Notes under the pieces: model-generated
Databases searched by the model: none
What the model was told of the DNA's origin: nothing
The model's input: only the letters and a program-made list of their open reading frames with translations
Position numbers and translations under genes: made by a program
Shown: one piece after another, positions 1,671 through 42,556 of the stretch
Numbering within the stretch: position 1 is the stretch's first letter
Layout: each line of letters starts with the position of its first letter
NCBI GenBank assembly: GCA_951799425.1
Contig: OX637399.1
Span: 20,000,001-20,064,000 of the forward strand
DNA: 64,000 bases
Direction: 5' to 3'
From: Ilex aquifolium
Lineage: Eukaryota > Streptophyta > Magnoliopsida > Aquifoliales > Aquifoliaceae

Positions 1671-1678
1671 GAGAAACC

Positions 1679-1780
1679 GTACTGGTATGCAGTACCGGTA
1701 CTGTACTGTACCGGTACGTAGTACCGGTACGCCTAAGCTACTGGTGTTCGAAGTATGGTATAGTACCAGTACTGTCTGCT
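1679..1780. repeat. GTACCGGTAC palindrome cluster (type B) upstream of ORF X
   Basis: ACCGGT cores start at 1694, 1710 and 1723, with a one-mismatch core (ACTGGT) at 1681, giving spacings 13, 16 and 13. The next ~55 bp (CTACTGGTGTTCGAAGTA and a final imperfect copy) match the cluster in the downstream LTR at 3849-3961. The cluster lies about 270 bp before the first ATG of ORF X, which fits a promoter of that ORF. An A-rich stretch and TTTTTAATTTAAAT follow, but no clear TATA box. Confidence 0.9.
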
Positions 1781-2047
1781 GAAACAAAAAAAAAAAAATT
1801 AGGGCTTTTTAATTTAAATCCCTCGGTGACCCTTTCATTTCCCACCTAAATTCCAACCCTAATTCTCTCTCTCTCTCACTCGAAAATGTCCCAGGCATCC
1901 AAGACCTCCTGCAATCCTAAATCCCTTCTCTTCTTCAAGCTTGGTTCTGTGCAACCCACACCCGAAACCTTAGTTGCCAAAAAACCCTAAAGTCCCTCCA
2001 ATTTCTCCAATCCTCCTGAACTTTCAAATTGCTCCAAGGAATCCCCA

Positions 2048-3331
2048 ATGGCTCGTCGTTTAGAGGTATGTTCTGAAGCCTTTGACCCGATTAAGGGTCT
2101 CCTCCATTTTCTCTTTGCCTTGTTCTTGATTCGGGCAGTGGTGCTCGGTATGGCTCGCACCAAGAGAGCCGGAACCAGTCCCCCACCACATGAGGAACCC
2201 AGTCGCCGCAAGAGAAGCGGCGAAGGGTCAAGCGAGGACCCGAATGAGCAAAGGAAAAGGGCTAGGAAACAGGCACGACTCCAGTGGATTCAGGAGAAAA
2301 ATGTGACCTGTGAGCGTCAACTTGATCGCATTTCACTCACCCCTATGCATCCGGTTGTGAAAATCATTGAAGGGTATGGTATGAATTTCTGGTTCAAAAA
2401 AGTTGAGGGGTATGATTTGGCATTGTGTAGAGAGTTCTACCAATCACTCAAGGTGGTTGTGGAGAAAGGTGGGGAGGTTTTGAGAGCAAACGTTAGAGGC
2501 AAGGGGATCGCGGTAACCCCTGATGTCATTGCCACCCTCCTAGGGGACTATCAGAGACCACCAAACTTCCCACCTGTCTATCCTCACAACATCACTAGAG
2601 CCAAGACCAAAGCTGAGTTTGTTGATCTGATGTATGAGGATCCTTCTAAATTCAGGGGCACTGTTCTGAGTGGAGGGTTGAAGCATGTCTATGGGCTTCT
2701 GAATAAGCTGCTCCATTATAATTTATTCCCAAAGGCCGCGAAAAAGAAGCCGAATATGGAGAAGTTAGCCCTTTTGGACGCTGTTGTGTTAGGCAAAATG
2801 GTTGACTTTGCCCTTTTTATATGGGAGGTGATGAAAGACTTTGCTGAGACAGAGAAGCCTATGACCAATTTTCCATATGGGAGTCTGGTAACCTGGATGT
2901 GCAACCACTTTAAGGTAAAGGGGTACGTCTCTGACAAGCTTACTCCTCCCGAGACAGGGGCTATTGGGAAGGCCAGTAGCAAGAAGAGAAAAACAATGAA
3001 TCGGGGGAAGCAAGCTCTTTTGGATTCTGATGAGGAGGACTTTGCACCGACTGCACCCACCATGCCATTCAAAGCCGTACCAGCACGCTCAGTACCTCGG
3101 CGTCTTGATGCACTAGAGATAGCAGTGCATGAGACCCAAGCTACTGTGCAGGGTATGGCAGCTATGATGAAAGAGTTATATGTGCATACCTTCCCTGGGA
3201 GACCTATCCCAGAAGTTCCCGCTCCACCAGCTGCTCCCTCTACCTCCAGAGTGAATGAGGATGATGATGATGATGGTGATGAGGAGGAGGAGGAAGAGGA
3301 TGATGATGATGGAAAGGGTGATGATGAGTAG
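2048..3331 (+). CDS. ORF X of element B (putative plant transposon protein family)
   Basis: Open frame of 427 codons between the palindrome cluster and the polypurine tract. Order: residues 1-34 hydrophobic extension; residue 35 an internal Met starting MARTKRAG; ~50-80 basic, NLS-like (RRKRSG, RKRARKQAR); ~115-320 a globular region with REFYQSL, NVRGKGIAVTPDVI and FPYGSLVTWMC; C-terminus strongly acidic (runs of D and E). The globular region reads like the domain called 'putative plant transposon protein' (I think PF20167, from memory). ORF X of D and C1 share its layout. Function unknown. The frame looks whole. The long antisense frame here is a shadow of the acidic tail. Confidence 0.8.
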   Translation: MARRLEVCSEAFDPIKGLLHFLFALFLIRAVVLGMARTKRAGTSPPPHEEPSRRKRSGEGSSEDPNEQRKRARKQARLQWIQEKNVTCERQLDRISLTPMHPVVKIIEGYGMNFWFKKVEGYDLALCREFYQSLKVVVEKGGEVLRANVRGKGIAVTPDVIATLLGDYQRPPNFPPVYPHNITRAKTKAEFVDLMYEDPSKFRGTVLSGGLKHVYGLLNKLLHYNLFPKAAKKKPNMEKLALLDAVVLGKMVDFALFIWEVMKDFAETEKPMTNFPYGSLVTWMCNHFKVKGYVSDKLTPPETGAIGKASSKKRKTMNRGKQALLDSDEEDFAPTAPTMPFKAVPARSVPRRLDALEIAVHETQATVQGMAAMMKELYVHTFPGRPIPEVPAPPAAPSTSRVNEDDDDDGDEEEEEEDDDDGKGDDE

Positions 3332-3608
3332 ATTGTGCTAGTGTTGTGCTTTTGTTTAGGTTTGGAATTTATGTAGTTGGGATGGGAACGTAGGCCATTT
3401 TGTACTCCAACTTCGTGCACATGAATGGAAAACCACAGTTTGTTCAATCTAATCCATGTTTATTTTGAAATTGCATTATGATTTTCACTTTGTGAGTGAT
3501 TGATTGGATGAATGGTTAATAATGGATTGTGTGCATGTTGTGCCCATTGTTTTAAGTTGGAGAAATACTCTTTTGCTAAGGGACTAGCAAAACCTAAGTT
3601 GGGGGGTG
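3332..3608 (+). promoter_or_regulatory. 3' noncoding tail and polypurine tract of element B
   Basis: After ORF X there are about 260 bp with no frame, ending in the tract AAGTTGGGGGGTG (3596-3608) directly before the LTR's TGATTAG. The same tract precedes the 3' LTRs of A (63354-63366) and, on the other strand, of I (45070-45082). In this family it primes plus-strand DNA synthesis. Confidence 0.85.
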
Positions 3609-5287
3609 TGATTAGCACAAAATAGTGTATATTCTTGTGTGCTAATCATCTCACTTCATTTGCTTTTGCAGTTTAAATGATGCGAATTGTGTTAGTTGAA
3701 GCATTAACGATGCTATTTGGTGTTTGCAGTTGCAAGGCCCTAAATAAGGCTTCTTAAGGCCTTCCCAAATGCATTGGGATGTTTGGGGGCGAAGGAAAGG
3801 TCAAAGTAAAGCTCAGAAGTTGAAAAAAATCAGAAAGAAACAGAGAAACCATACCGGTATGCAGTACCGGTACTGTACCGTACCGGTACTCAGTACCGGT
3901 ACGCCGAAGCTACTGGTGTTCGAAGTACCAGTACGCAGTACCGGTACGGTACAGTACCAGTAGTGTCTGCTGAGTCTGCCCCGAATCTCTGCATTTCAAG
4001 ATCTGCTGCTCTGAGGGTCCCACCATCAGTTCTCCCTGACACGCCCACAATACTATTCACCACTTTTACACTTTTGATTGGATGTTGGAGGCTTGGGTGA
4101 TCAATGAAGATAGAGAAGAGAGGAGGAGCTGGGTGTGCAGACAAGCTCTACACTCCCCTGTCCAGGCCATCCCTGCTGCACCTTACTGATGGGGGTCACT
4201 TTAGGGAGCTACAGGACCACTCCAGGCACGTTTTTGGGGAGGCCAAGCTCTCCAATGTTCAGCATTCTATAGCATGGAATAGATATCAACATAAGGATAG
4301 AGAAAAAAAAGCTCCAGGCGTAGAAGAAGATGAATAGTAGTTTTAGAGAGAGAAAGTTATGATTTTTGCATTTCTTCTACTGCATTGTCTTGTAATCAAT
4401 GGTATGAACCTTTAGAATTTCATTGAATGTCATTAATGCTAATTACCTTCATGTTCCTGGCTAGTTTAATGCTCTTCTAAAGTTTCTACCATTAATGCTT
4501 CAAGTCTTTCATTGTCTTCGCTGTAAAAAAATGGGATTGAAATGCTTTCACTTTTAGCTTGTGTTTTATTGCATTTAGTGACTCTAGAACTTCATATTTT
4601 TGCAATGCACTCTCTTTACATTGTCACTTTCATTTCAAATATGAGTAGCTAAATCCTTTAGTTGGCAAGACCAAGGGGAATCTCCCTTTGGGTATACCAT
4701 TTCAACTCCTTCTCCTCCCTCCCTTTAGAGTCCAATGGTTCGGTTTGACTAGATTGAAGGTGGATGATTCGGTGAGTCTTTGATAATCCGTAGGCCTAGT
4801 CACGGTTTATGCTTAGATACTCACCGACATCATCCTCGGCTTTCCATGAATCAATCGTTCATTCATGCTCAATCGGAGGAGTGATTTGAGTTGAGATGGT
4901 ATACCCATTGGAGTGACCTCTTGGAATTGCCAACACTTGCTTTCTCATTTCATTTTCACCAAAACACATTTCACCAAACAACTTTCCACCACAAGAATTT
5001 TTACACTTTCTTTTCCCAAAATCACTTTCAAATTGGTTTACTTCCTTCCCCGTGGAAACGACCTTGGAATACCACCAAGTAAAACACGACCCACGAAAGT
5101 CTCCTTGCGATTGTGGAGCATTTTTGTGCATTCACATATCACATTTCCACCAACCTATTTCCTTTCCCCTTGCCCTTTTCTTTTGGCACTATCCCAAGGG
5201 AGAGTGACACTCCCTTTCGTTCATACACTTTGGCTTCTAAGGAATAGTATTTAAGGGGTTAGGAATAACACCGTTTTTGCTCAATCA
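3609..5287 (+). mobile_element. LTR of element B (1679 bp), shared by two element copies
   Basis: Starts TGATTAGCAC right after a polypurine tract and ends CAATCA at 5287, three bases before a primer-binding site. It is thus the 3' LTR of the sequence on its left and the 5' LTR of the sequence on its right. It carries the type-B palindromes (3853-3960) and GGGTCCCACC at 4015-4024. The U5 half (from about 4300) resembles A's LTR. No partner LTR remains in the window, so age cannot be measured. Confidence 0.85.
3849..3961. repeat. GTACCGGTAC palindrome cluster (type B) in LTR
   Basis: ACCGGT cores at 3853, 3866, 3882, 3895 and 3940, with one-mismatch cores at 3912, 3927 and 3955. The first four repeat the 13-16-13 spacing of the ORF X promoter cluster (1681-1723). 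Sequence outside the cluster is unlike the ORF X promoter, so the cluster is what the two promoters share. Confidence 0.92.
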
Positions 5288-5290
5288 TTT

Positions 5291-5308
5291 TGGCGATGTT
5301 GCCGGGGA
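5291..5308 (+). promoter_or_regulatory. Primer-binding site (tRNA-Asp type)
   Basis: TGGCGATGTTGCCGGGGA follows the LTR end by three bases and differs at two positions from A's site at 59795. It pairs with the 3' end of plant tRNA-Asp, the usual primer of Athila-type elements. About 30 bp of leader follow, then the sequence switches to chromovirus coding sequence near 5341. Confidence 0.85.
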
Positions 5309-5340
5309 AGGCAAGTGTCAAACCTAAGAGAGGAGTCCAG

Positions 5341-5890
5341 ATCTGATTAGAGATACCTCAGAGAAGGTGGACTTGATTCGGAAGCGTCTTCTCACGGCTC
5401 AGAGCCGGCAGAAAAGCTATGCTGACAGACGGAGACGACCTCTGGTATTTGAGGTTGGTCATCATGTTTTCTTAAAGGTGACGCATAAGAGAGGAGTGGT
5501 CAGATTTGAAAAGCAGGGAAAGCTTTTGCCGAGGTTTATCGGGCCCTTCGAGGTACTCGAGAAGGTTGGTACAGTTGCTTACATGTTGATTTTACCGCCA
5601 AATCTATCGGGTGTTCACGCAGTGTTTCATGTCTCCATGCTCCGGAAGTATACTCCAGATCCGACGCATGTAGTGGATTGGGGGAGCTGATTGTTGACGC
5701 GGATGGGACCTTCGAGGAGGGACCGGTGCGTATCATTGATGGCTGGGAGCAAGTTTTGCGAGGTAAGACCGTGAGGCTAGTGAAGGTGTTGTGGCAACAC
5801 CGAGGTGTGGAAGAGGCGACATGGGAGCGTGAGGACTCTATGCGTACCAGTTATTCGTTCTTGTTCGAGGATGGAGGTACATTTTCATAA
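5341..5890 (+). pseudogene. Chromovirus G: end of pol (integrase C-terminus and chromodomain)
   Basis: Translations show integrase C-terminal sequence (QSRQKSYADRRRRPLVFEVG, then PRFIGPFEVLEKVGTVAY and HVSMLRKYTPDPTHV) and a chromodomain-like end (VRLVKVLWQHRGVEEATWER). This is the 3' end of a Tekay/Del-type Ty3/gypsy element, a lineage different from its neighbours. Only the last part of pol is present; the element is broken. It abuts element B's leader on the left. Confidence 0.88.
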
Positions 5891-5984
5891 TCATAAATAC
5901 TGCATTACCTGTAGCATATGCATGTGGTTGAATGTGCATGTGTGTGTGAATTTTGGGGACCAAATTCTTTTAAGGGGGAAAGAA

Positions 5985-8863: not shown

Positions 8864-8868
8864 TGTGT

Positions 8869-8900
<32 letters not shown>
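8864..8900. repeat. GT microsatellite
   Basis: About 37 bp of GT dinucleotides with one interruption, preceded by a short AT run. It lies inside LTR H. Confidence 0.95.
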
Positions 8901-9096
8901 TAAGCCCTAGCCTTAATGAACAAGAGTGAGAAGAAACCCCTACCTTTGTTCCTTAGTGTTGTGTGAAAAACTAGAAGATTTGATCCACTTCAATGTGAAA
9001 ATCCCCCTTGATCTTGTGTTTCTTCCCCTCTTTCTTTCTCTCTAAGACTTTCTAGGGTTAGAAATGTTGAAATGATGCTAAAGGGGGCGACCTTAT

Positions 9097-9108
9097 GTAT
9101 TTATAGGG
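9097..9108 (-). promoter_or_regulatory. TATA box of LTR H
   Basis: Minus-strand CCCTATAAATAC. It lies about 40 bp downstream of the nearest type-C palindrome (9148), the same order as in C1, C2 and F. Confidence 0.7.
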
Positions 9109-9140: not shown

Positions 9141-9292
9141 ACTCACGTTCGAACGCCAAATTCGAACGTCATTTTGGTGTTCGAACGTTAGTTGCCCCTA
9201 GTACTTTTGTTTTTCCATCAGACAAAAGTACTGGAACGAACTGTCGTTCGAACGGATTTTCACGTTCGAACGGATTTTCACGTTCGAACGTC
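9141..9292. repeat. CGTTCGAACG palindrome cluster (type C) in LTR H
   Basis: TTCGAA cores at 9148, 9161, 9180, 9247, 9265 and 9283, spaced 13, 19, 67, 18 and 18. The linker between 9190 and 9240 has GTACTTTTG and AAAAGTACTGG, which also occur between palindromes in the ORF X promoter of C1 and C2 (for example 30489-30500). Confidence 0.93.
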
Positions 9293-9793
9293 ATCCCATT
9301 TTCAGCTGAACTTCCAATGAAGTTTTGTCCCATTTAGAGGTCGATTTTGACAATTTTTGTGAAATACACTTTTCTAGCCCTGGAAGTCTAGTGTCTACTG
9401 TAAAAATATCAGATCAAACGGACATTAGAGTAAAAATTTATGGTCCAAATACTAAGGCAGTGTAAAAATTCTTTCTACCCAAGTTTTATCAAAAATGTGT
9501 TTTAACTCCGGAACACTTCCTAACTTCTAATACACCCCATATTACCTCTCGCAATGTTTCTCGATCTTCTGGATTCAATGGACATCTTATTTTGACCTAA
9601 AAATATTTTGAACTTACCTAGCAACCCCTTCTAAGCTTAAACACCTTTGAAACTTAAACTTCACAATCAATTCGTCCCCCAAATATTTATTTCTACTGTT
9701 ATAATCTATATGGTTTATTCTTACGTCATTCCATATATTAGAATTACTAAACAATTATATTACTATATTAATGTAAACATGTGGGGGTTTACA

Positions 9794-10003
9794 AGGTACC
9801 GATACCTGATACCATAGGTACCGACACATAGCACTTGTACCTTAGCTTTTCGAAATGGAAGAAATGAAGGAGGTATTGATACCCTCATCACTTGGTACCG
9901 ACAACTGAGCCTACTACCATCGAGGTATTGGTACCTCATCAGTTGGTACCAGTACCCAAAGCCCATAAGTCCCAGATTACTTTCTCCACGACTCTACAAG
10001 CTA
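9794..10003 (+). mobile_element. Probable U3 remnant of element E's LTR, with GGTACC palindromes
   Basis: Lies between LTR H and solo LTR L2. Because L2 is flanked by CAAGG on both sides, this stretch and 13929-15231 were once contiguous. It holds repeated GGTACC or close variants (GGTACCGATACC, TTGGTACCAGTACC), an E-specific version of the palindrome theme. Its start was not found. Confidence 0.55.
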
Positions 10004-11392: not shown

Positions 11393-11733
11393 CCAATTTG
11401 CCTTTTTCTTGGTTTCTTGTAACACCCCTCATTTTCTTTTATATATGCATATAGATATATAGATATAGCAAATAATGGTTGTAAATATGTGGATAGGGGT
11501 ATTGAAGTGTGTTTGAACTTTGTAAATTTGAAAAGTAAAGATTTAAAATGTTAATGAAAATCATAGTTGAAATTTAGTTTTAGTGAGTGAAAATATAAAA
11601 TGTTAGGTCCTATAACTTGTATTAGATAGGTTTGGGGTATAAATATGTGTTGGAGAGGTTTGTGATGGATTTGGTTAGTTTTGGAATGGATTGGAAATGG
11701 AAAACAAAAGAAATAGGCAAAACTGGGTAAATG

Positions 11734-11829
11734 GCACCGGTACTGTGTACCGGTACCCCGATTCCAGAAGGTTTCTTGTACCGGTACTGGGTACCGGTAC
11801 TGAATGGTACCGGTACTGAGTACCGGTAC
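11734..11829. repeat. GTACCGGTAC palindrome cluster (type B) in chromovirus LTR F
   Basis: ACCGGT cores at 11736, 11749, 11780, 11793, 11809 and 11822: spacings 13, 31, 13, 16, 13. The last four copy the 13-16-13 layout of element B (1681-1723 and 3853-3895), and linkers are similar, although F and B belong to different retrotransposon lineages. Confidence 0.93.
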
Positions 11830-11885
11830 TACCGAAACCAGACTGTTTATTTTAAAGTCGCGAATTTCGGCCTCTCTCTCTCTTC

Positions 11886-11895
11886 CTATAAATAC
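11886..11895 (+). promoter_or_regulatory. TATA box of LTR F
   Basis: CTATAAATAC, about 60 bp after the last palindrome. A purine-rich leader (AGAGAGAAAGAGAGGGAGAG) follows near 11950, as is usual after the start site in plant LTRs. Confidence 0.75.
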
Positions 11896-13933
11896 TTAAG
11901 GCCGACTATTTGAGCCCCATTTCAGCCTTCTAAACCCTAGGCACCTTTAGAGAGAAAGAGAGGGAGAGAAGAACATCAAAGATAAGGAGAGATACACCAT
12001 TTTAGAAGATTAAAACCCTAGATTTCTAAGATTTCACTTCTCTATTCATTCTCTTTTCTTCCATTCTTCACCCACTCTCACCCAAATCTTTTGAAAACCC
12101 TAGGGAGAGGAGATTAAAAGGAAAAGAAAGGAAAGCAAGAAGGTCTTGAAACTTGGGTATTTGGCTAAAACTCTTGAGCATTGAGGTAGGGGATTTCTTC
12201 CTATTCTCTTACATTGAGGCTAGGATTAAATTATATGTATTCTTTGGTTCAAAATCATATATACTTGCTATTATTTACTTGATTCTTGATCCTCTTGCAT
12301 TTATTGCCATGTTTTAAACATTGTGGTAGTTGGGTAACCATTGAAGGTCCCTTTTTCATTCTCAAACCCTAGTTTTAAGAAAAATGAATTTTTCCTCTTT
12401 ACATTTTCTTTGTTCTCACCATCAAAACCTTAGTGCTTGATATTGTATAACAAAATGATGTTTATGGTGATCTCTTGCTCTTTTTCTTCAATTATGCTAT
12501 GGTACAAATTGTGAAATTCGGGGATTTTGGGATTTCTGGTAAATTGAGAAAATGTTTGTAATGATATCTCTTGTATGATTGTTGTGATGGACTGGAATTG
12601 CTTTCGAGCATTGCCGTAGAGTGTTAGAGGTTAGTCTATCCCGGTGGGGGTTTATGGTATGGTTAGAATGTGAGATATTTGTGGGAATTTTATCGCTTGC
12701 GTGGTTGTACGATACGAACATGGATTACTATGGACCGGGTATCATGTAGTGGGTATACGTCTTTATATGCCACGCGGGTATGAACTTTTCCTACCACATG
12801 GAGTGGGTAGACGCCTTTGTACGCTGTGTGGGTATAAACTTTTCATATCGCTAATGATCACTGGTTAGTAACGTGGGTTGTATCGGGCACACAGTGTGGG
12901 TCATCGTGCATTGTACCATAAATTGTTTTGACAAGAGTTTCGGGAAGTATGGGATTCTGCGAGAACTTGTTGAAAACGGTTCATGGTAAAATGAATTACC
13001 AATGGTATATGGTGTTTATTTATCCATTTCGATTACTATTGCTACTTAAACTTGAGATCTATTTAAAATGTCCTGCTTTTCCTTCAAAATGTTATATATG
13101 CTATTTGTGAAAATGAGACCAACCGTTTTATATGCTTTCCTAAACCTTGTTTGAGTTTGGGAAGATTTTGCTACAGAGCTTCGTGCTCATCCCCTACAAT
13201 TAACATTTTTTTCAGATTATGCTATAGAGGAGGAGCTTGGCGCTAATGAGCCGGGCCTTGGGGAAGCCTCATTAGAGGGGTACCTGGATCCCGAGTGGGA
13301 CATTTAGAGATGCCCCTTTTATTTTTGTTCTAGACTAGGAGATTTATTTCTGAACAATGTAAAGTCTAGATTCTTTTGAAACTCCGCTGCGATATATTCA
13401 TGTAATTCTTTTGGGGAATGTAATTGCCATATCTGGCCTATTCTTTTGGGATAATGTTAAGGATAGTATAGATGGTAAATAGAAATTTTATTGTTATTGG
13501 ATGGTTAAATGGACCCTGTGTGGTCAAGTTAATAGAATTGCACAGGTTGTGATTTTTGGGTGGAGCTTCCTGTACAAAGGAGACTCTGCCCAAATTTTGT
13601 TAAAATTAAGAATGTTTCTTATTCGATGGATATATATTTAGTTGCTCTCATGACATGAATGGTTTCATAGTGTAATGCCGTCCAGGGTGGTATTTGAGGT
13701 GTTACATTTCTTCACCTTCCAATCCTTCCTTTAAGCTATCCCCTCATCTTCATTGACTTTAAACACTACGATGGGAGCTCAACTCAAGCCATTTACAATT
13801 CTTCACCTAGATTCACACAAAACTTCATTAAAAGGTAGATTAAATGCATTTCTTTCCAAATTCACAACAAAAGCAATTATAAAAAGGGTATAACCACATA
13901 CAATATATACAATATTTTTTGCTAATCACAAGG

Positions 13934-15917: not shown

Positions 15918-17629
15918 TGCTTGATGGTTTTCCCTGATGTCCAAACACGAACCCGGATTATGTGTTTATGTCTTATAGAAATTGGTGAGTGTCACTCTCC
16001 CTCGGGTTCAACGCAAGAAATGGGGAAAATCGTGTGGATGAACAAAAACTTGGGTGTGTGTGTGCAAAAGTGCTCCCTAAGTGTAGAGAGACTTGCAATG
16101 TCATGTTTTACTTGGAATGGGTATTCCAAGGTCGTCTCCTTAGGGAAGAAAAGGTCAAATGCTTTTGAAGGGTGATTTGTAAAGAAATGAAAATTGAAAA
16201 ATCTCATGAATTGTATTTTGGTGAGTTGTGTTTTGAGAAATATGCAAGAAAGCAAGGTTGGTTAATCCATAGAGGTCATTCCAATGGGAATGCCAAATCG
16301 ACTCAATTTATTCAACTAATGGTGTCTCGGTGTTTGATTGATTCGTAGAAAGTGAGGTACTAATGTGTTTGTGTTGGACAAAAGCATACCCCGTGACAAG
16401 TCTACGGTGTATTGAGAGCCCACAACCATGTCCGCACTCAACCTAGTCAAACCAAACAATTTACACTATGAGGAAGAACGAAAGAGAGTCGATTTCACAT
16501 ACCCAAGAGGAAATTCCCCTTGGATTAGCCAACTAAAAGTTTAGCTACTCATAGTAAAGGTAAGAACAAACATAATGTAAAGACACATGGTAGTGAAATG
16601 AAACATGAAACTTGTATTGATGCAAGACAAGATTTAAGCTACAAGAGCAAAGTCATTCATACCCAAAATACAAAGCTTGAAGAGGAAATACCCAAATGTA
16701 GAAATGAAAATACAAAAACACTTAGCTAAGCTTGATTACAACTTGAATAAAAGAGATAGAGTGTAAGAGGGAAGGATTACAAGTAAAATAAAGCTTACTA
16801 CAATGAAAATGGTGAAGGAAATGTAAAAACCCAACTTTCTCTCTCTAAAACTTCATCTTCAACCTTGGAGCTTCTCTCTCTAAAAGCATGTAAAAAATCT
16901 AAATAATGGTGTAAGGCTTCTCTAAAATTCATCCATCCTCCCTCCCTTAGCATGTGTGAACGGAATTGGAATGATTGGAGAGAGGTTGGACACTTGAACA
17001 AACAATTTCAGTCCAAGCCTGCTCCTCCCATGCTTTCCCAACCACCCCTCTTCTCTCTCTTACATCAAATCCGACTTTGGGGGTTAGGAGAGCATCATGG
17101 GGTATCAAACATATCAAGGTATAGTTTGGAGGACAAGAGGTGGGCCTCCGGAGTAGGTGGAGTCATGTGAACAGGTGTCTAGCATAAATGAGGGAAACCT
17201 ACCGGTAGAATGTAGAAAACCTACCAGTAGGTTTTTTCCAGTAAGATTTTCTAGCATTAGGTTTTTGCATGGCAGACATTGAAGATTTCCAGTAGCATTT
17301 TCTACCAATAGGTATTGAGTCTTCTACCGGTAGGTCCTGACTGACTTCTACCAGTAGGTCTTGGTTACCTTCTACCGGTAGGTTTTGTCTTGCTTTGGAA
17401 TTTTCTTGGTTCCTTGAGGTCTCGAGCCATCCGTTAAGCAGTCTGTTCTTCCCCATTGACTTTGAGCACTTGATGGGATGCTTTATATATGACCTTACCT
17501 GCTCTTTACCTTCAATCACACAAATCTCCATTAGTTGTGAGTTTGAAACCATTTCCCCCAATTTTCACCACAAAACAAGTAATGTAGGTGCAATAGAGAT
17601 GCATGATGTGCAATATTCTATACTCATCA
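15918..17629 (-). mobile_element. 3' LTR of element D
   Basis: 1712 bp; on the minus strand starts TGATGAGTATAG and ends ATCAAGCA. It pairs with 51187-52915. It contains the type-D palindromes and, at 17138-17149, a diverged form of the GGTCCCAC box found in other LTRs. Confidence 0.9.
17196..17382. repeat. CTACCGGTAG palindromes (type D) in D's 3' LTR
   Basis: Perfect or near cores at 17201, 17223, 17304, 17326, 17350 and 17374. The run 17304-17374 has spacings 22, 24 and 24. The full motif is CTACCGGTAG, often extended to CCTACCGGTAGG. Several copies carry one change at the central CG (ACCAGT, ACCAAT), as expected from methylated-CpG decay. Confidence 0.9.
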
Positions 17630-17650
17630 CACTCCCCAACTTGAGTTTTG
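17630..17650 (-). promoter_or_regulatory. Polypurine tract of element D
   Basis: Minus-strand CTCAAGTTGGGGAGTG directly before the LTR's TGATGAG. It matches the tracts of A, B, C and I. Confidence 0.85.
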
Positions 17651-18021
17651 CTAGTCCCTAACAAACTTTATTTTCAAACAACACTACATAAAAAAATTAA
17701 TTATATCCATATTACACAATTCACATATCAACATCATACTCGTAAATGAACTTGGGGCAAAATGAAACAAACAAAATGTGGCTCTTTCATTCATAATTTT
17801 CATGAGGTTCAGTACAAAGATCTTGTGACAAAAAAAATGGCCTGTGATCCTAGAGACTTTTCTATTAGGCCGACTACCCCTAAACCACTATGTACAATCA
17901 ACCCCAAAACAACAAAATCGAGAGTAAGAACTATCTACTCCTCCGCATCGTCACCGGACTCATTATCATCCCACTCATCATCGTCACCATCCTCGCCATC
18001 AAACTCCTCATCATCGGAATC

Positions 18022-19249
18022 CTACACATCTAAAACAGTCGAGCTCATGAGGATAGAAGTGGATGGCCCAGAGGTGGAAAGTGGTGACACTTCAGGGAGA
18101 GGCTCTCCTGGGAAAGTCCTCTCGAAGATCCTGGTGACCATCAGTGTTAGCAGCTGCATAGTCCCACTAAAGTCTTCCAACCATCCCTCGATCGCATCAA
18201 GGCGCTGAGGGACCATACGAGGTGGGGCAGTAGTGGATGGCCCAGAGGTGGAAGGTCCAGCTGTAGGTGGCTCGACTCTCGATGGCCTAGCTCTCTCTTC
18301 CCTCTATGCAAACCCTTCTATCATGGCCGACCTCTTCATGCTGTTGAACTTGGCTATGGTGCCAAACTCTGGAGGAAGAGTCACATCGGTGGGGCTGCCC
18401 TTCACCTTGTTATGGCGGCAGATCTTTGTGACATGGTGGGCATAAGGAACATTTTCCTTTGGCTTATTAGCCTGGGCGTATTCCTTCATCACCTCCCAAA
18501 TCATGAAGGCAATGTACATCCTCTTGCCCGACATGAAAGCATGGAAAAGGGCTAGCTTTTGCTCCCCCAGAGTCTTCTTCGCACCCCGAGGTAACAAATT
18601 GTAATGAAGCACTTTGTTCATTACCCCGTAAGAATGCCTGAGTGGCCGAACTTGAATTTTTCCATTAAACTATGTCGGGTCTTCATACCTCAAACTTCCA
18701 TATTCCTGGAGTGACCTCCTCCCATGGGTGTTGTGAGGATAGACCGTGGTGTTGGGAGGAGGTCTCTGGTAATGCAATGACTCCCAGTGTGATCTCCATC
18801 ACCTTCCATCTCATGTTGGTCTTCAACAAAAACAAGTCCTCATCCACCACCCCTAGCTTTTGATAAAACTCCCTACACATGGGAAGCCCAAACCACCCCA
18901 CGAGCTTGAAAACATTGATGCCATGGCCCTCTTTCACTCAGACCACGTCATCGTTTGCCCCGAGGGTGAGCCTATCTACCTGCTGCTCGCACGTCACATT
19001 TTTCCCTTTTATACTTTTCATGCGAGCGTCATTTTTTTGCTTTTTCCTTTGTTCCCCACCACTAGGGCTTACCTCCTCAATCCTCTTGCGGGCTCTGGTT
19101 CCCGCAGGAGGTGGAGAGCGGGGGCCCGTTTGCTTGGTACGAGCCATAACAATCAAAAATGACCCTAGGGTGACAAAAGTCAACAACCAACCCCATACTA
19201 TGTCAAAAATATCAAAGGATGCATGAAAAGACTTAACCAATCGAGCCAT
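18022..19249 (-). pseudogene. ORF X of element D (broken)
   Basis: Homologue of B's ORF X, spread over several reading frames. From the start at 19249 a 34-residue hydrophobic extension leads to an internal Met at 19147 reading MARTKQTGPRSPPP, then a basic stretch (RARKR, RKKQKND) and NVTCEQQVDRLTL, which matches B's NVTCERQLDRISL. Further on come CREFYQKL and VLHYNLLPRGAKK (B: LLHYNLFPKAAKK). The extension is exactly as long as in B. The N-terminal six residues after the internal Met equal histone H3's first six. It has several breaks. Confidence 0.82.
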
Positions 19250-19542: not shown

Positions 19543-19609
19543 AAACCTACCGTAGATCATCAAAAACCTACTGGTAGAACTGTGCACTAGAAAATTTCTA
19601 CCGGTAGGT
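19543..19609. repeat. Type-D palindromes upstream of D's ORF X
   Basis: One perfect CTACCGGTAG (core 19600) and two diverged copies (cores 19549 and 19570), about 300-360 bp upstream of the ORF X start on the minus strand. This is the motif found in the same element's LTRs. Confidence 0.8.
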
Positions 19610-25440: not shown

Positions 25441-25467
25441 AAGTATTTCACCCTCCTTGGAGCCACC

Positions 25468-27245
25468 TGACTTGATTCGATATGTGTACACCCAAGTGCA
25501 GGTGGTCAAGTTGTAGTCATAATCCGGTTAAGTCTGAAGTCGAATCCAAAGGGAACTGTTGTCGATGTTTTGAAGTAAGCGGTGACAGAGACCAAGTGAT
25601 TGTAACCTTTTAGTTTTTGAAGTTATGTGATGTATGGGATTTTCTAGACAGAATATAGGATTCTTTCCAAAGGGATTTTCTAGAAAAAATATAAGATAAG
25701 CTTAAATGTAAAAAGTTACTCTTTAGTTCGAGGATCTGGACATGTAGTTAATCATCTGGTGTATTATACTTGTACTTGGTAACTCAATTAACCCCTGTGT
25801 CAACAGCAAGTTAATCGAAAGATAAAGGTGGACTAAGAGCATGGTTCTGATGTCTTTCTAGAAGTTTACAAGAATTGTCTGTGCCGAGACTCAACCCGTC
25901 TACAAACAAGCAAGTGTTTCTACAAGGCATCCAACCATGGCATTGATATTCCATTCTTTAAATGAAGCACAATAATGGTGAAGATTGAAGGGTAGTCATG
26001 AAGATCTAGCCGGGGTACTTGCCTTGAACCAATGAGTTTTTCTATGCAAGAGTTATCTATGTTATAGAAAGTACTCACGGTTATACAAAGTACCTTAGCT
26101 TTGCTAGATGCAATCAATCATTTAATAAACAAGGGAAATATAAAGCATTAAGTGTAATAGAAAATGCATAGATATAACTTCTGGATGATTTATACATGTC
26201 CATTACCTCTTACTAAAGAGTGAATGAGAAACTACTCACTCTTCATGGCTTTTGTAAAGCTAGAAAAGTAAGTGATACTCATCCCTCCAAGTAGAGGAGT
26301 TACAAGATAAAACACACTACACAAGGAGCCGATCTTCGATTAAGAATGAGTGAATCACGTTCCACCCTTCATGACTTTGGTAAAGCTCTAGAAAAGTGGA
26401 AGAGTTTCATTCCTCTCAGGGAAGAAAGAAGCTCAAGCAATGGAAGTAAGTGAAACTAATGCTAAAAGTAGAAGAAAGCTAGTCACTTTTGGAGGGTTTC
26501 TACTGCAACCAAAAGATGATCTATCTTCCTTTATGCAAGTAAATATAAACCTAAGTCTAAGACTAAATCTATAACAAGCTAAGAAATGTTGATCTAGTCT
26601 ACCAAAACAAGTCCTCCTTTGAAGCTCCCACAATGGTAGTATTTATAGGCAAAGAGGAGGGGACAACAGAGTGTGAAAGAATAGTGCAAGGCCGCCAAAG
26701 TCCAAGTGAAAGCCAACCACTCTGCAGCCAGTCTGGGAACAACGTTCGAACGTTGTCTATCGTTCAAACGTGTCTTCTGTCTTTGCTTGATGGGTGTTCG
26801 AACGCCATATGGGGTCTGACCTTCCCACTCAAGTGGCCTGTGTTCTTCTGTGAAATCCATTTCCACACTCCATGCACGACTTGACTTTGCACTCAGTAGC
26901 CTTCAATAATTCTGGAGAATGTTCGAACGTGATTTGGCGTTCGAATGTGGTACTCAAGTACCTCAGTGTTTTCCTTCTTGGCTGCAACACGCCATGTCTC
27001 AGCAGCCTGACCCTCAAATAAACCAAGGGGATGTTCGAATGTGAGTTGGTGTTCGAACGTTCTTGCTTTGTTCCAAACTTCTCCTATTTTGCTCCAGGGC
27101 ATACTAGTGTTGCATGAAATTTTGATATTCATTGTCTTTGGTCTCTTGTACAATTTATGTCTTGAAATGTCATCATTTAAACTCCATTAAAGTATAATTA
27201 GTCTTAAAAAGGGCATAGTAATATGCTGATTTTAACTACTAATCA
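25468..27245 (-). mobile_element. 3' LTR of element C1
   Basis: On the minus strand starts TGATTAGTAGTT at 27245 and ends GAATCAAGTCA at 25468. It holds type-C palindromes (26741-27065), then a TATA box (minus-strand CCTATAAATAC, about 26638-26648). The tract TTTAGGCTGGGGGTG lies at 27246-27260. Confidence 0.87.
26738..27065. repeat. CGTTCGAACG palindromes (type C) in C1's 3' LTR
   Basis: Copies near 26743, 26764 (diverged), 26795, 26924, 26941, 27035 and 27054, several with one change. They lie upstream of the TATA box on the minus strand. Matching copies are in the 5' LTR at 37631-37945. Confidence 0.88.
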
Positions 27246-27260
27246 CACCCCCAGCCTAAA

Positions 27261-29204: not shown

Positions 29205-30164
29205 CTAGGCTCTCTCAGCCTCTAGCTCTCTCTCCTCCTCCTCGTCTAGCACATCTTGTACCTCATCGGTGCCTCGATTAGGGGGTACCTCCTGTCTAGC
29301 TGTCGGGGGCCCACTATGACCTTGGCTTCGTCTGAAGGAAGCCTTGTTAAGTAGCCCCATCGGCCTCTGTATTGTCATCTCTGGCCTCACCCTAACCCCT
29401 TGGTCTGTGCACATCTTTGTCACCAGGGTGCCAAAAGGGAGTGAGTTCCTCTTCACATCGCATCCCTTCATCATCTCTGTCAATATCAACGAGGGGAGGT
29501 CTATGTTGTGGCCCTTCCCAAGTGTGTATAGTAATCGGGCTGCCTCGGGGAGGATCTTGTTCTTGCATCCTATGGGAGCAAAGTTCATGACCACAATCAA
29601 ATTCAACATTTTATACTTGTCGGTCAACTCCCCTTGCCTAAAAAATCTCCGCCCCATCCATGAAAAAGTGGCTAACCCCTTCAACTCGGCCCCCACATCA
29701 TCCATTCCCACCTTCTTCCTCGGAGGGTAGGTTGGTCTTGGTACCCGAGGCACCTCTTGCATAATCTCCTGGATGTAGTCCTCGTCCACATCTATATGGG
29801 TTCCCCTCATATAAGTTTTTATCCGCCCATTGAGTATTTCGGCGTTGGAGTAGAACTCTCGCACCAAGTCAATCACGGCCTCACCACCGTTTATCAAGTA
29901 CAACATCCACCCCCTCCTCTCCATGTCCTCAAGAATCCACAACTCAGCAAAATCAGTTACTATCACAGTTCGTTCACACACTACGGCTTGATTTCGGTAA
30001 AATTTTTCATACCTGTCCGCTTTGAGGGCTGTAGGGAAGCGAGTCTTGTCATATCTATGGACAATGGGTGGCCTCCCCTCTCGCACTTCGACCACCTCCT
30101 CCACGAAATTGGGTTCTTGATTGATCACATTGCACCTAGCAGGAAGCTTCATTCTTGGAGGCAT
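29205..30164 (-). CDS. ORF X of element C1 (putative plant transposon protein family)
   Basis: Open frame of 319 codons starting MPPRMKLPARCNV. It shares the ORF X layout with B: FYRNQAVVCERTVIV, LVREFYSNAEILNG, TYMRGTHIDVDEDYI, FSWMGRRFFRQGELTDKYK, then NSLPFGTLVTKMC (B: NFPYGSLVTWMC) and an acidic tail (LDEEEERELEAERA). It lacks the hydrophobic extension and MARTK start of B and D. It lies about 220 bp downstream of its own TATA box and palindromes. The frame looks whole; C2's copy is broken. Function unknown. Confidence 0.8.
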   Translation of the reverse strand: MPPRMKLPARCNVINQEPNFVEEVVEVREGRPPIVHRYDKTRFPTALKADRYEKFYRNQAVVCERTVIVTDFAELWILEDMERRGWMLYLINGGEAVIDLVREFYSNAEILNGRIKTYMRGTHIDVDEDYIQEIMQEVPRVPRPTYPPRKKVGMDDVGAELKGLATFSWMGRRFFRQGELTDKYKMLNLIVVMNFAPIGCKNKILPEAARLLYTLGKGHNIDLPSLILTEMMKGCDVKRNSLPFGTLVTKMCTDQGVRVRPEMTIQRPMGLLNKASFRRSQGHSGPPTARQEVPPNRGTDEVQDVLDEEEERELEAERA

Positions 30165-30373: not shown

Positions 30374-30385
30374 GTATTTATAGCC
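30374..30385 (-). promoter_or_regulatory. TATA box of C1's ORF X promoter
   Basis: Minus-strand GGCTATAAATAC, 13 bp from the nearest type-C palindrome (30398) and about 210 bp upstream of the ORF X start. The homologous box in C2 is TATAAAAG at 41240. Confidence 0.78.
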
Positions 30386-30393
30386 TGGGAGTG

Positions 30394-30700
30394 AACGTTC
30401 GAACGTCAATGACGTTCGAACGTGAACAGAAGGATTTTAAAAGGATCGTTCGAACGTGAACCTGTCGTTCGAACGTGGTGAGCTCCCAGTACTTTTGAGT
30501 TATGCCAGAGACCAAAGTAGTGTAAGCTCATAGCGTTCGAATGTTCTATTAGCGTTCGAACGTGGTATTATCGTTCGAATGTTCTATTGGCGTTCGAACG
30601 TGGTGAGCTCTCAGTACTTTTGAGTTCTTATCAGAGGCTTCATCAGAGGCTGAGTACTGTAAGCAGGAGACGTTCGAACGTAATCTGGCGTTCGAACGCC
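30394..30700. repeat. CGTTCGAACG palindromes (type C) upstream of C1's ORF X
   Basis: Nine TTCGAA cores at 30398, 30415, 30449, 30468, 30536, 30555, 30574, 30593 and 30673, and a tenth at 30691. Pairs are spaced 17, 19, 19-19-19 and 18. Between groups lie copies of CAGTACTTTTGAGTT. Confidence 0.95.
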
Positions 30701-30838: not shown

Positions 30839-31361
30839 TTACTCTGCCCATATTTGCATTTCAGTCAAAAGATTTTGTACATTTAACAAAAAGAGTTTTA
30901 CACTTTTTTTACAAAAATTCGGACCCTTGGCTTTCATCCCCAAAACACAATTTTCCACAGTTTTGTTAGAAAGCAGTCTAATCAGAGTCATCCTCTGTCT
31001 TCGTGTCATTTGAACCATTAGTGACTCTTCTAATTTCATGTCGCACAAACCGGTTAAGCAAAGTACCGAAATAGGATGGCGTGGTAAGATAATCCTTACT
31101 CTGCCCATTCACTATCTAGTGTAATCGATCGAGTGCGCAACCGAAAATCGGTTCATAACACTGATTATATTCTTTCATGTGAAAGACCCGGCCACATTGT
31201 TTACAGGCACCAAGTCTTTTGGCATGACGACGTTTAGCAAATGTGCTTCTGCCACATAGTGGTTTCGCTTGCTGTTCTCGGATTTCGTTCTTTCTTACCA
31301 ATCTTGCTTTTCTCATGATTACAATATGCACATCAGATGAAAAAGTGCGTAAAACTCCCAA
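30839..31361 (-). pseudogene. Small ORF Y of element C1, cysteine-containing, unknown
   Basis: Between integrase and the ORF X promoter. The first open stretch (31361-31116) reads a basic Cys-rich peptide (MRKARLVRK, CGRSTFAKRRHAKRLGACKQC, then GRVFH). C2 has the homologous sequence at about 40270-40700 on the plus strand. CxxC with a later Cys/His and many Arg/Lys could bind nucleic acid, but I do not recognise a family. It is broken. Confidence 0.5.
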
Positions 31362-36024: not shown

Positions 36025-36072
36025 ATGAAATTGGCCTTATCAAGGTTTTGGTTGGGCAGAAAACTTGCCCTT

Positions 36073-37995: not shown

Positions 37996-39911
37996 TGATT
38001 AGTACTTAAAATTAGCATTTTTACTATGCCTTTTTAAGACTAATTGTACTTTCATGGAGTTTAAGTGATGTCATTTCAGGTCTTTAAGTGAACAAGGACT
38101 CAAAGAACAATAAGTATGACACTTGAGTATAACACCAGCATATTAGAGAACAAAATTAGAGAAGCTTAGAGCACTGCAAGAACGTTCGAACGCCAACTCA
38201 CGTTCGAACGTCCACTTGAACTGTGAGCAGACCTGACTGCTGAGAGAAGGCGTGTTGCAGCCAAGAAAGAAGACTCTGAGGTTCTGAAGCACTTGAGTGC
38301 CACGTTCGAACGCCAACTCACGTTCGAACGTCCACTTTAGTTGATTGAAGACCAGACTACTACATAGAGTGTGGAAATGAATTTCACAGAAGACCACAGA
38401 TCACTTGAGTGAGAGGGTCAGACCACATCTGGCGTTCGAACGCCCATAATGCAACGACAAAAGAAACGTTTGAATGGCATACAACGTTCGAACACCCATA
38501 AAGCAAAAACAAAGACAACGTTCGAACGCCAACTCACGTTCGAACGTTCTCCACAGACTGGCTGCAGAGTAGTTGGTTTTTCACTTGGACTTGGGTGACA
38601 TACACTATTCCTTCACCCCCTCTTGTCTCCTCATCTTGCCTATAAATACTCCCATTGTTGGAGAACTAAGGGGAGCAAGTAGAGAGGTTGATGGAGGCTT
38701 AGACTCCCACTCATATTGTAGAATTAGCTTACATTTCCTTGTATGAAGTATTTGTTCTAGAGATTAGTTTGGCTTAGTCCAACATCTCTTAGCTTGTTAT
38801 AAAATTAGTCTTATGCTTATGCTTTTATTTCCATGCATATAGGGAGATAGCTTACATTTGGTTGTGGATCACCCTCCAAAAGTGACTACCTTTCTTCTAC
38901 TTTTAATATGTGTATCATTCACTTCCATTGCTTGAGCTTCTTTCTTCCCTTAGAGGAGTGAAACTCTTCCACTTTTCTAGAGCTTCACCAAAGCCGTGAA
39001 GGGTGGAACGTGATTCACTCATTCTTTGTCGAAGATCGGCTCCTTGTTTTATTGTGCTTTGTTTAGTGAACCCTCTACTTGGAGGAATGAGCATCACTTA
39101 CTTTTCTAGCTTTACCAAAGCCATGAAGAGTGAGTAGTTTCTCATTCACTCTTTAGTAAGAGGAGAAGGGCATGTATAAATTATCCGGATGTTATATTTG
39201 TGCAATTTCGATTATGCTTAATACTATATATTCCCCATGCTTATTGAATGATTGATTGCATCTAGCAAAGCTAAGGTACTTTTTATAACCAGAAGTTCTT
39301 TCTATAACATAGATAACTCTTGTATAGAAAGACTCATTTGGTCAAGGCAAGTACCCCGTCTAGATCTTCATGACTACCCTTCAATCTTCACCATTATTGT
39401 GCTTCAATTAAAGAATGGAAATGGAACATTAATGTCATGATTGGATGTCTTGTAGAAACACTTGCTTGTTTGACGGGTTAAGTCTCGGCACAGACAATTC
39501 TTGTAAACTTCTAGAAAGACATCGGAATCATAGTCTTAATTCTCTTAATCCACCTTTATCTTCCGATTAATCTGCTATTGACACAGGGGTTAATTGAGTT
39601 ATCAAGCACAAATGTAACATACCAGATAATTAACTACATGTCCAGATCCTTGAGCTAAAGAGTGGCTCTTTTACATTAGAACTTATCTCATATTTTGTTT
39701 AGAAAATTCTGTTGGAAAAAATCTTATATTCTGTCCAGGAAATCTCACACCTCACACAACTTCAAGACTCAAGGGTTATAATCAATGGGTCTCGACCACT
39801 ACTTACCCCAAACCTTTTATAGTTCCTTGTGGATTCGACTCCGGAGTCAAATCGGATTATTACTACAGCTTGACCGTCTGCACTTGGGTGTACGCATTTC
39901 GGATCAAGTCA
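37996..39911 (+). mobile_element. 5' LTR of element C2
   Basis: 1916 bp; starts TGATTAGTACTT and ends GGATCAAGTCA. Type-C palindromes at 38181-38548, TATA box TATAAATA at 38641. Its terminal 11 bases agree with C1's LTR end. Confidence 0.88.
38181..38548. repeat. CGTTCGAACG palindromes (type C) in C2's 5' LTR
   Basis: TTCGAA cores at 38185, 38203, 38305, 38323, 38435, 38487, 38521 and 38539, with a mismatch copy at 38469. Spacings: 18, 102, 18, 112, 34, 18, 34, 18. The 18-bp pair CGAACGCCAACTCACGTTCG recurs three times. The 3' LTR copy lies at 47391-47760. Confidence 0.94.
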
Positions 39912-39917
39912 AGTTTT

Positions 39918-39934
39918 TTGCGCCGTTGCAGGGA
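39918..39934 (+). promoter_or_regulatory. Primer-binding site of C2
   Basis: TTGCGCCGTTGCAGGGA, two differences from the tRNA-Asp site of A over this length, six bases after the LTR end. An internal purine tract (TTTAGGTTGGGGGGTGAG) follows at about 40046-40063, as in C1 near 31580. Confidence 0.78.
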
Positions 39935-40924
39935 ACTATAAAAGGTGTTCTAAGGTAAAAGGTTTCGGCAAATGAACAAATCTCCACCATTCAAGTCCAA
40001 GATCCGAAACTAGTAAAATCGAAACATTGGGGACAATGTTCTGTTTAGGTTGGGGGGTGAGAACTACAGTTCATATTTGCCAACATGTGCCCGTAAATTT
40101 TTAAAATTTTTTGTTGTTGTTTTTGTTGTTCTGATCAGACTATATAGCTTGCCTTGTATAAATTGATGATTATGTCTGTGAGTCAGCTTCGATCGTCTTT
40201 GTGACTGGCAGACGTTAAAGAACCAGATAGTGAGTCTTAAAGCTTAGAAAGCATGGATGTTAAACTTTTTTGGTTTAGTCTAGGAGTTCTACGCACTTTT
40301 CCATCTGATGTGCATATTGTGATCATGAGAAAAGCAAGACTAGTAAGGAAGGCCGAAATCTAAGAAAAACAAGCAAAACCCCTCTGTGGCAGAAGCACCT
40401 TTGCAAAACGCCGTCGTGCTAAAAGACTTGGTGTTTGTAAACAGTATGGCAGAGTCTTTCACGAGAAAAGATATAACCAGTGTTCTGAACCAATTTCCGA
40501 TCGCGCACTCGATCGATTAGACTGGATAGTGAATGGGCTAAGTAAGGATTACCCTGATACGCCATGCTATTCCGGTACTATGCTTAACCGGTTTGTGAGA
40601 GAGGAAATTGGGAGAGTAACTGGTTGTTCGAACTACACAGACACAGAGGGAGACTCAGATTAGATTATTTTCTGTAGGAAATTGTACTTTTGTTGGGATG
40701 AAAGCCAAAGGTCCGAATTTTTTGTAAAAAGTGTAAAAATCTTTTTGTACAAACTCTTTTGATTGAAATGAAAATATGGGCCGAGTAAGGAATGTCCCAG
40801 AATACAAACCTGAAGCGTGGGTAGGGGCTTATCCTGAGACGCCATAGGTTTTTGATTTAAAATTGTGTGTTTAACCCTCTCTGATTTTGTATAGTGTAGT
40901 GCAGAAATTATTTTTGTTTTTGAC

Positions 40925-41247
40925 TCAACGTTCGAAAGTTAAGTAACGTTCGAACGTCAGCTGCTTGCAGTACTCAACCTCTGATGAAGCTCCTGATGAA
41001 ACTCAAAAGTACTGGAAGCTCAGCTCGTTCGAACGCCAATAGAACGTTCGAACGAGATTAACGTTCAAACGCCAATCGACCGTTCGAACGAAGAGAACTT
41101 ACAGTACTTTGGTCTCCGACAGAACTCAAAAGTACTGGGAGCTCACAACGTTTGAATGACAACCACGTTCGAACGATCTTTTAAAAATCCTTCTATACAC
41201 GTTCGAACGTTACCCACGTTCGAACGTCACTTTTCAGACTATAAAAG
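40925..41247 (+). promoter_or_regulatory. Promoter of C2's ORF X: type-C palindromes and TATA box
   Basis: CGTTCGAACG or close copies near 40930, 40947, 41028, 41046, 41082, 41167, 41202 and 41219, with CTCAAAAGTACTGG between groups, then TATAAAAG at 41240. It mirrors the C1 ORF X promoter on the other strand (30374-30700). Confidence 0.88.
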
Positions 41248-41462
41248 CCTGGATCGTCTTCCCCATTTCAAAAACCCCAAAACCCTTCAAAATCCCTCAA
41301 ACCCTAGGTTGTCCTTTCGCTACCCAGACCTCAAAGCACCCCTCATTCCCCATTTCTACCTAAAATCAACCTTCCCAAGACCATTCCCACATCAAAAACT
41401 CCCATTTTACAAAGAAATCAAAACTCTCAACACCCTCACAAACTCAAAACTGAAAACACTAT

Positions 41463-42556
41463 GCCAAGGGTCAAGCACCTACCTGGCATACTCCACCAAC
41501 TCAGGAACCCAACATGGTGGACGAAGTCATAGAAGAAAGAGAAGGAAGACCCATTGTAAGGAGGTATGAAAAAACCCGATTCCCTACGGCTCTAAAAGCT
41601 GACAGGTATGAAAACTTCTACCAAAACAAAGCCATAGTTTGTGAACGGGATGTGATCTTGGCTGACTTTGCGGAGTTGGGGATCTTTACGGATATGGAGA
41701 GGAGGGGGTGGTTGTTTTATTTGAGGAACGGCGGGGTGGCCGTGGTTGACTTGGTGCAGGAGTTTTACTCCAACACCGAGATCATCGACGGGGCAATTCG
41801 AACATATGTAAGGGGAGTCCATGTGGACATAGATGAGGATTACATTCAGGAATTGAGGCAAGAAGTGCCTCGAGTGTCAAGACCCACCTATCCCCCGAGG
41901 AAGAAAGTAGACATGGATGTGGTGGGGGCCAATTGACCGGGGTGACTACTTTTTCTTGGGGTGGGATGAAATTCTTTAGACAAGGAGAGTTGAATGATAA
42001 ATATAAGATGTTGAACCTAATTGTGGTCTCGAACTTCACACCGATAGGATGAAAAAATAAAGTCCTCCCCGACATGGCCCGGCTATTGTATGCAATTGGG
42101 AAAGGCCAAAGCATCGACCTCCCCTCTTTAGTTTTAATGGAAATGAAAAAAGGGTGTGATGTGAAGTGAAATTCACTTCCGTTTGGCACCCTAGTAACTT
42201 AGTTATGCAAAGATCATGGGATTAGGGTAAGGCCAGAAGTGGAGATCCAAAAGCCAATGGGGCCACTGAACAAGGCTTCCTTCCGGAGGAGCCAAGGTCA
42301 TAGTGGCACCTCAGCAGCTAGATAGAAGATGCCCCCTACCCATGGAATTAACGAGGTGCAAGAAGAGCTTGATGCAGAGGAGGAGAGAGAGCTACAAACT
42401 GAGAGAGGCCAGGAGCAACCACAGGAGGCAGGACCTAGCACCAGCACCCGACACTCTTTACGAGACATCATGCTTAGCATTGAAGCTAAGCAGGATGAGA
42501 TTCTCAGCCTTCTGAGGGGTGGACCTGGTGGATCTAGTAGAGATGGAGGAGATTGA
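41463..42556 (+). pseudogene. ORF X of element C2 (broken)
   Basis: Homologous to C1's ORF X: VDEVIEEREGRPIVRRYEKT, FPTALKADRYENFYQNKAIV, LVQEFYSNTEIIDG, YVRGVHVDIDEDYIQE, and a C-terminal acidic region (EELDAEEERELQTER). Present over most of its length in more than one frame. The start region reads MPRVKHLPG, again without MARTK. Confidence 0.82.

Follow-up and report, generated by a model that had tools for sequence, protein, structure and literature searches.

Type-matched palindrome arrays in long terminal repeats and ORF X promoters of Athila-like retrotransposons of Ilex aquifolium, and a possible VANC-like regulator

The window analysed here is a stretch of 64,000 nucleotides from Ilex aquifolium (assembly GCA_951799425.1, contig OX637399.1, positions 20,000,001 to 20,064,000), to which all coordinates and counts below refer. 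It holds a nest of plant Ty3/gypsy elements, some with an additional open reading frame (ORF), named ORF X. In five of five Athila-like elements (A, B, C1, C2 and D) the palindrome type clustered in the long terminal repeat (LTR) was also the type in the ORF X promoter, the latter being a relic in A. The five represent four families, because C1 and C2 have one common type, and they are the entire sample for this covariation. Self-comparison revealed LTR pairs for C1, C2 and D; judged from the breakpoints, C1 is nested in D and C2 in the 5' LTR of C1. D encodes protease, reverse transcriptase (RT), RNase H and integrase in Ty3/gypsy order, and ORF X sits between integrase and 3' LTR in C1 and D, as in the Athila lineage. 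A primer-binding site (PBS) of the tRNA-Asp type, an Athila feature, follows the LTR exactly in A, with two mismatches in B and D and with three in C2. The features of these elements are:

1679..1772 (+), B type array ahead of the ORF X of B, GTACCGGTAC, three of five sites exact
2150..3331 (+), ORF X of B, 393 amino acids from MARTK, with Transposase_32, a long C-terminal helix and an acidic tail
3607..5287 (+), LTR of B, ends by eye, tRNA-Asp-type PBS at 5291
3850..3963 (+), B type array in the unique 3' region (U3) of the B LTR
15918..17631 (-), 3' LTR of D, D type array at 17199-17381
17932..19147 (-), ORF X of D, ends by eye, stops and a frame change
19547..19607 (-), D type array ahead of the ORF X of D, CTACCGGTAG, one site exact
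25465..27250 (-), 3' LTR of C1, ends approximate, C type array at 26743-27059, TATA at 26647
29205..30164 (-), ORF X of C1, 319 amino acids, Transposase_32
30396..30698 (-), C type array in the ORF X promoter of C1, eight of ten sites exact, TATAAATA at 30382, 13 bp below
37998..39914 (+), 5' LTR of C2, ends approximate, C type array at 38183-38546, TATA at 38641
40929..41226 (+), C type array ahead of the ORF X of C2, seven of ten sites exact, TATAAAAG 13 bp below
41454..42409 (+), ORF X of C2, ends approximate, stops and a frame change
51183..52917 (-), 5' LTR of D, D type array, PBS at 51182
57892..59794 (+), 5' LTR of A, A type array at 58131-58518, exact tRNA-Asp PBS at 59795
61101..61400 (+), internal array of A, ten of ten sites exact CTTCCGGAAG
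63365..64000 (+), 3' LTR of A, cut by the window end, A type array

Perfect palindromes of at least 10 bp numbered 155, and 101 of these were CG-centred; first-order Markov shuffles (n = 30) contained on average 64 palindromes and 6 CG-centred ones, at most 78 and 11. Four 10-bp types with CG at the centre were distinguished: CTTCCGGAAG (A type, 43 exact copies), GTACCGGTAC (B type, 12), CGTTCGAACG (C type, 36) and CTACCGGTAG (D type, 8), the expected number of copies being 0.0. All 99 exact copies lay inside the 21 listed arrays, and their absence elsewhere is partly by construction because the list was built from clusters. Not one of the 21 arrays had exact copies of two types, and the array in a detached piece of the C1 5' LTR had no exact copy. 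The D ORF X array spans 19568-19607, with a further, imperfect CTACGGTAG read by eye near 19547-19555. Three near-copies in A type LTRs were half A and half D (CTTCCGGTAG at 58487 and 63962, CTACCGGAAG at 236). Among further distances, the main centre-to-centre distances were 21/22, 31/32 and 53 bp for the A type, 13, 16 and 31/32 for B, 17-19, 34 and 67/68 for C and 22-24 for D. The 21 arrays were located in U3 or in ORF X promoter positions; LTR arrays started 184-250 bp inside six Athila-like LTRs, and 469 and 316 bp inside two LTRs, A' and F, described below. The observed/expected ratio of CpG was 0.68-2.31 in ten of eleven arrays measured and 0.38 in the D LTR array; it was 0.34-0.52 in five LTR remainders and 0.46 across the window. 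In many decayed sites (17199-17381 and other arrays) the CG in the middle had undergone transitions (CTACTGGTAG, CTACCAGTAG), a pattern that methylation of inserted palindromes would produce; the scan tolerated changes at this CG without penalty. The motif GGGTCCCAC, which we take to fit the class I TCP consensus GGNCCCAC, was observed below the arrays of four LTRs (A 58569-58577, E1 56483-56491, A' 44488-44496, B 4015-4023).

The original prediction had placed matching clusters in the LTR and upstream of ORF X in B, D, C1 and C2, and at an internal site of A; all of them were recovered at the coordinates listed above, A bearing one palindrome in its LTR (58131-58518) and internally (61101-61400) with no ORF X found. 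Its statement that the clusters have no flanking sequence in common failed for two elements. In B the LTR and ORF X clusters were 92 % identical over 92 bp (1664-1755 versus 3836-3927), a stretch spanning most of each cluster, and in A the spacers of LTR and internal array were alike with the palindromes masked (z 8.4). For C1, C2 and D, the element's own LTR/ORF X pair was outside the 30 best of 91 array pairs in the spacer comparison. The ORF X of C1 and C2 has its own promoter, since a TATA box (TATAAATA and TATAAAAG, respectively) lies 13 bp below the last array site; TATAAATA is also present after the LTR arrays of C1, C2, F and G. A TATA-like box was found neither below the ORF X arrays of A, B and D nor within 200 bp below the LTR arrays of A, E1, A', B and D. 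The leader after the internal array of A resembled the ORF X leaders of B and D (0 of 300 shuffles each), hence this array is read as what is left of a former ORF X promoter; the leader had no likeness to the C leaders. Between C1 and C2, the ORF X arrays differed in 6 of 100 palindrome columns versus 59 of 241 spacer columns (p 3e-5), and the LTR arrays in 7 of 70 versus 67 of 301 (p 0.02). Such an excess was seen neither between the two LTRs of C1, of C2 or of D, nor between two near-identical A LTR copies, nor between B LTR and B ORF X array. Because conservation was present between C1 and C2 but not between copies, the sites have been maintained between the C families and decay once inserted. 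In the long spacers of the C type (30396-30698, 40929-41226, 9146-9290) a second inverted pair AGTACTTTTG...CAAAAGTACT was noticed, perfect in the Del-type LTR G and imperfect in C1 and C2. Element A itself extends from 57892 to beyond 64000 and carries gag at 59926-60897 (+) with three CCHC zinc knuckles; it looks young, 634 bp of its two LTRs being 99 % identical. Neither pol nor ORF X was found in A, which is probably a non-autonomous, recently mobile element.

ORF X belongs to the Pfam family Transposase_32 (PF20167) in B, C1 and C2, the C2 fragment scoring under the curated cut-off. The decayed D copy was 40-43 % identical to B in two stretches, while B and C1 shared 23-24 %. The ratio of nonsynonymous to synonymous substitution rates (dN/dS) was 0.106 for C1/C2 (295 codons) and 0.179 for B/D (351 codons), values that are rough because synonymous sites are near saturation; by this sequence measure, purifying selection acts on ORF X. 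The N-terminus of the B protein is basic and its tail very acidic, both features being weaker in C1. A hydrophobic in-frame stretch upstream of the MARTK of B (mean 2.28), open in B and D, was unconstrained with a dN/dS of 0.93 (39 codons). Plain Foldseek with the predicted ORF X structures gave no significant match; in a second comparison the predicted folds from two distant clades singled out VANC21 bound to DNA (9lnj) among 352 and 365 chains compared. The Pfam domains of VANC21 (DUF1985 and others) had no match at E<=10 in 14 ORF X members, in a search whose HMMER filters discard weak matches. Protein database searches with ORF X returned 4, 3 and 10 matches, some repeated, and no relative came up in viral_contigs or genome_contigs. 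Patterns of palindrome pairs returned 0, 3 and 0 stretches from viral_contigs; one, in a phage-like contig, is a repeat within coding sequence (L003), two were read around the match (L001, L002), and by tblastn none encoded an ORF X relative. Between integrase and ORF X array lies a small ORF, at 31116-31361 (-) in C1 and in pieces at 40241-40663 (+) in C2. The C1 copy resembles carlavirus nucleic-acid-binding proteins (PF05515, E 3.3e-7, 30.9 bits with a cut-off of 23; PF01623, 5e-6); the C2 copy has an interrupting stop, and its piece 40364-40663 falls slightly under both Pfam cut-offs. Judged from its sequence, the retrotransposon may have acquired it from a plant virus. The original prediction had considered an ORF Y as regulator too; if that is the small ORF ahead of the ORF X array of C1, it is like a carlavirus nucleic-acid-binding protein.

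The palindrome types were also predicted to be private to one family. This did not hold, as GTACCGGTAC occurs in the solo LTR F, CGTTCGAACG in LTR G and CTACCGGTAG in the mosaic LTR A':

9146..9290 (-), C type array in the Del-type LTR G, TATAAATA at 9105
11418..13706 (+), solo LTR F of the Del/Tekay type, TGTAACACCCC...GGTGTTACA, target site duplication TTTCT
11734-11829 (+), B type array inside F, TATA at 11887
43180..45070 (-), mosaic LTR A', A-like backbone, D type array at 44549-44601

The 5' end of F, TGTAACACCCC, carries the Del U3 attachment site TGTAACACCC, the commonest one in maize and sorghum (PMC4029996). F and G were assigned to Del/Tekay from this site and their related LTRs, the ends of G being uncertain and F having no internal domain. 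They were 69-74 % identical in three like-oriented stretches; a fourth (79 %) had the opposite orientation and lay outside G. Apart from short low-complexity matches of the G region to E1, F and G matched the Athila-like LTRs solely in the arrays. All five spacings of the F array belonged to the set 13/16/31/32 (61 of 200000 random placements), and G had C-like spacings (97 of 200000), both sets having been chosen after the data were seen. Between B and F the spacings recurred although the 3-bp spacers differed. One 57-bp spacer of G resembled the 58-bp spacers in the ORF X arrays of both C1 and C2 (for each, 0 of 5000 shuffles) and their longer spacers (6 and 1 of 5000). A' was 99.4 % identical to the A LTR in its first 170 bp and A-like in its repeat and unique 5' regions (R/U5), yet has a D type array; over the 400 aligned columns that come first below the array, its closest relatives were E1 and E2 (58 %, both type A). 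Judged from F, G and A', arrays act as modules that can be exchanged. In Arabidopsis, distant Athila families are known to recombine (PMC2410132). Beside G, a decayed cluster of GTACCGGTAC-like sites with CpG transitions was read by eye at 9788-9960, its element being unplaced; two of these sites were also recovered by the palindrome scan.

The interpretation we favour, and regard as somewhat probable, is that ORF X is a VANC-like binder of the palindromes of its own element, with the LTR and the ORF X promoter as its targets. The elements may encode their own on-switch, because the arrays are matched and the predicted fold of ORF X is like that of an anti-silencing DNA-binding protein. The ORF X of Athila-like elements would then be a sequence-specific DNA-binding protein that recognizes clustered CG-centred palindromes, probably as a dimer and perhaps via the long C-terminal helix, at one array in the LTR U3 and another in the internal ORF X promoter. 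It would lift silencing from, or activate, the genomic promoter and by feedback sustain the expression of its own gene. In each array a single palindrome recurs at preferred spacings, the ORF X clades and their palindromes having diverged. Array modules would have been exchanged between LTRs, including those of the Del type and of element A; the latter, having gag only, would be driven in trans. The half-sites of the related families A, D and B (GGAAG, GGTAG, GGTAC) form a one-step series, found in 0.0055 of random trios, or 0.021 if any three of the four are allowed, the trio having been chosen after the data were seen; together with the A/D hybrid sites this fits a single binder family whose specificity has drifted. 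Several observations weigh against ORF X as the binder. The code is not element-specific, because two Del-type LTRs use the same types with like spacings, and U3 arrays seem to pass from one LTR backbone to another, as in A'. 9lnj was absent from the PDB sequence-search matches of ORF X at E<=10, and no Pfam DNA-binding domain was significant. Hydropathy and helical phasing are minor cautions, which lower the probability of this interpretation slightly. The best 19-residue Kyte-Doolittle means were 1.98 in B, 1.93 in the member P0001 and 1.13-1.32 in four others; two of six proteins exceeded the usual threshold of 1.6, so that by hydropathy ORF X might still be an envelope protein, with the peaks inside the Transposase_32 domain. 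Helical phasing of the sites was strong in A (R 0.76), where it rests on copies of one repeat unit that are not independent, and weaker and off-phase in B, C and D. The self-encoded VANC-like regulator originally proposed is thus partly supported: in its favour are the predicted fold, purifying selection, the charged ends of the B and C1 proteins, the TATA boxes below the ORF X arrays of C1 and C2, and the conservation of palindromes between these two elements.

Host dimeric factors or their paralogues might instead bind the palindromes, several LTR lineages having recruited the same sites and the ORF X promoter following the same signal. The best argument for this rather unlikely alternative is the occurrence of the same types with like spacings in LTRs of two lineages. 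The D half-site ACCTACC resembles what we take to be the plant MYB AC-I element, and TTCCGGAA presumably fits the heat-shock pattern TTCnnGAA. Sirevirus arrays, moreover, occur also in families without ENV (PMC2829016). However, several factors would be required, each with its own spacing, and neither the VANC-like predicted fold of ORF X nor the single-step half-site differences among related Athila-like families would be explained; a motif search of papers matched no known plant site and listed a single paper, which concerns an oomycete. An improbable origin is that of a passive by-product, in which a segment rich in palindromes, but with no specific binder, was spread by tandem duplication and by recombination or template switching. 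Consistent with it are the shared flanks in A and B, the likeness of the G spacer to the 58-bp spacers of C1 and C2, the mosaic LTR A' and the lack of constraint in B (LTR versus ORF X array) and in D, but the palindromes of C1 and C2 are conserved beyond their spacers, the spacings of B and F recur despite different 3-bp spacers, and the 21 arrays keep to U3 or ORF X promoter positions (the cluster at 9788-9960 being unplaced). Least probable are CpG-rich platforms for methylation or nucleosomes, or structural signals in DNA or RNA, read by no sequence-specific dimer: ten of the eleven arrays measured are CpG-rich relative to LTR remainders and window, like the CpG islands of Sireviruses (PMC2829016), but type purity and type-specific spacing exceed CpG content, and the C1 and C2 ORF X arrays, being above the TATA box, are outside the predicted ORF X mRNA.

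A VANC-like ORF X can be compared with the VANC proteins of the Mutator-like VANDAL transposons of Arabidopsis, which it resembles in predicted fold. For VANC, target specificity is reportedly a matter of motif density and helical periodicity as well. Both systems combine an element-encoded protein with clustered short motifs in non-coding DNA that vary between related families, and with spill-over to unrelated elements (PMC5735166). VANC6 motifs are present in the unrelated AT9TSD1, which VANC6 hypomethylates (PMC5735166), thus an element-encoded factor can serve other elements. In contrast to VANC, ORF X is carried by an LTR retrotransposon with LTRs, PBS, RT, RNase H and integrase, no sequence similarity between the two was detected at E<=10, and there is one array in the promoter for the genomic RNA and another in that of ORF X; the VANC21 motif YAGTATTAY is not palindromic, whereas the motifs here are perfect palindromes. 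The architecture of palindromes in the LTR and at a 3' gene is already known from Sireviruses of the Ty1/copia group, described in 2010 with element-specific palindromes upstream of the LTR TATA and 5' of the ENV-like gene, in many copies forming CpG islands (PMC2829016). C1 and C2 share this arrangement, but the elements here are Ty3/gypsy, Athila-like and Del-type, their four palindrome types lack the CGG-CCG core of Sireviruses, their types are common to several lineages, and the 3' ORF is a Transposase_32 protein with a VANC-like predicted fold. Sunflower Athila 14 has a 3' ORF with Transposase_32 and predicted nuclear localisation (PMC11728184), so that PF20167 is found 3' in an Athila element there as well; the excerpts of that paper mention no array, target motif or relation to VANC. 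In the literature excerpts searched, neither palindrome arrays in Athila or Del nor a relation of Transposase_32 to VANC were found; within that scope the arrays in Athila-like elements, their type purity and spacing rules, their occurrence in Del-type LTRs too, and the predicted VANC-like fold of the protein encoded downstream are new.

The function of the 3' extra (env-like) ORFs of Athila is described as an open question (PMC7264820, PMC11728184). Tentatively, the env-like or additional ORF of Athila may be a VANC-fold anti-silencing factor with palindrome-addressed autoregulation, on which Del elements would be parasitic by copying arrays. With a VANC-like predicted fold and matched arrays, the function of these ORFs becomes directly testable, as binding of ORF X to its palindrome and demethylation or activation of its LTR. 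If ORF X does act in this way, sequence-specific anti-silencing encoded by transposons would not be confined to Mutator-like DNA transposons but would include abundant retrotransposons of plants, and arrays would be subject to theft between retrotransposon lineages.

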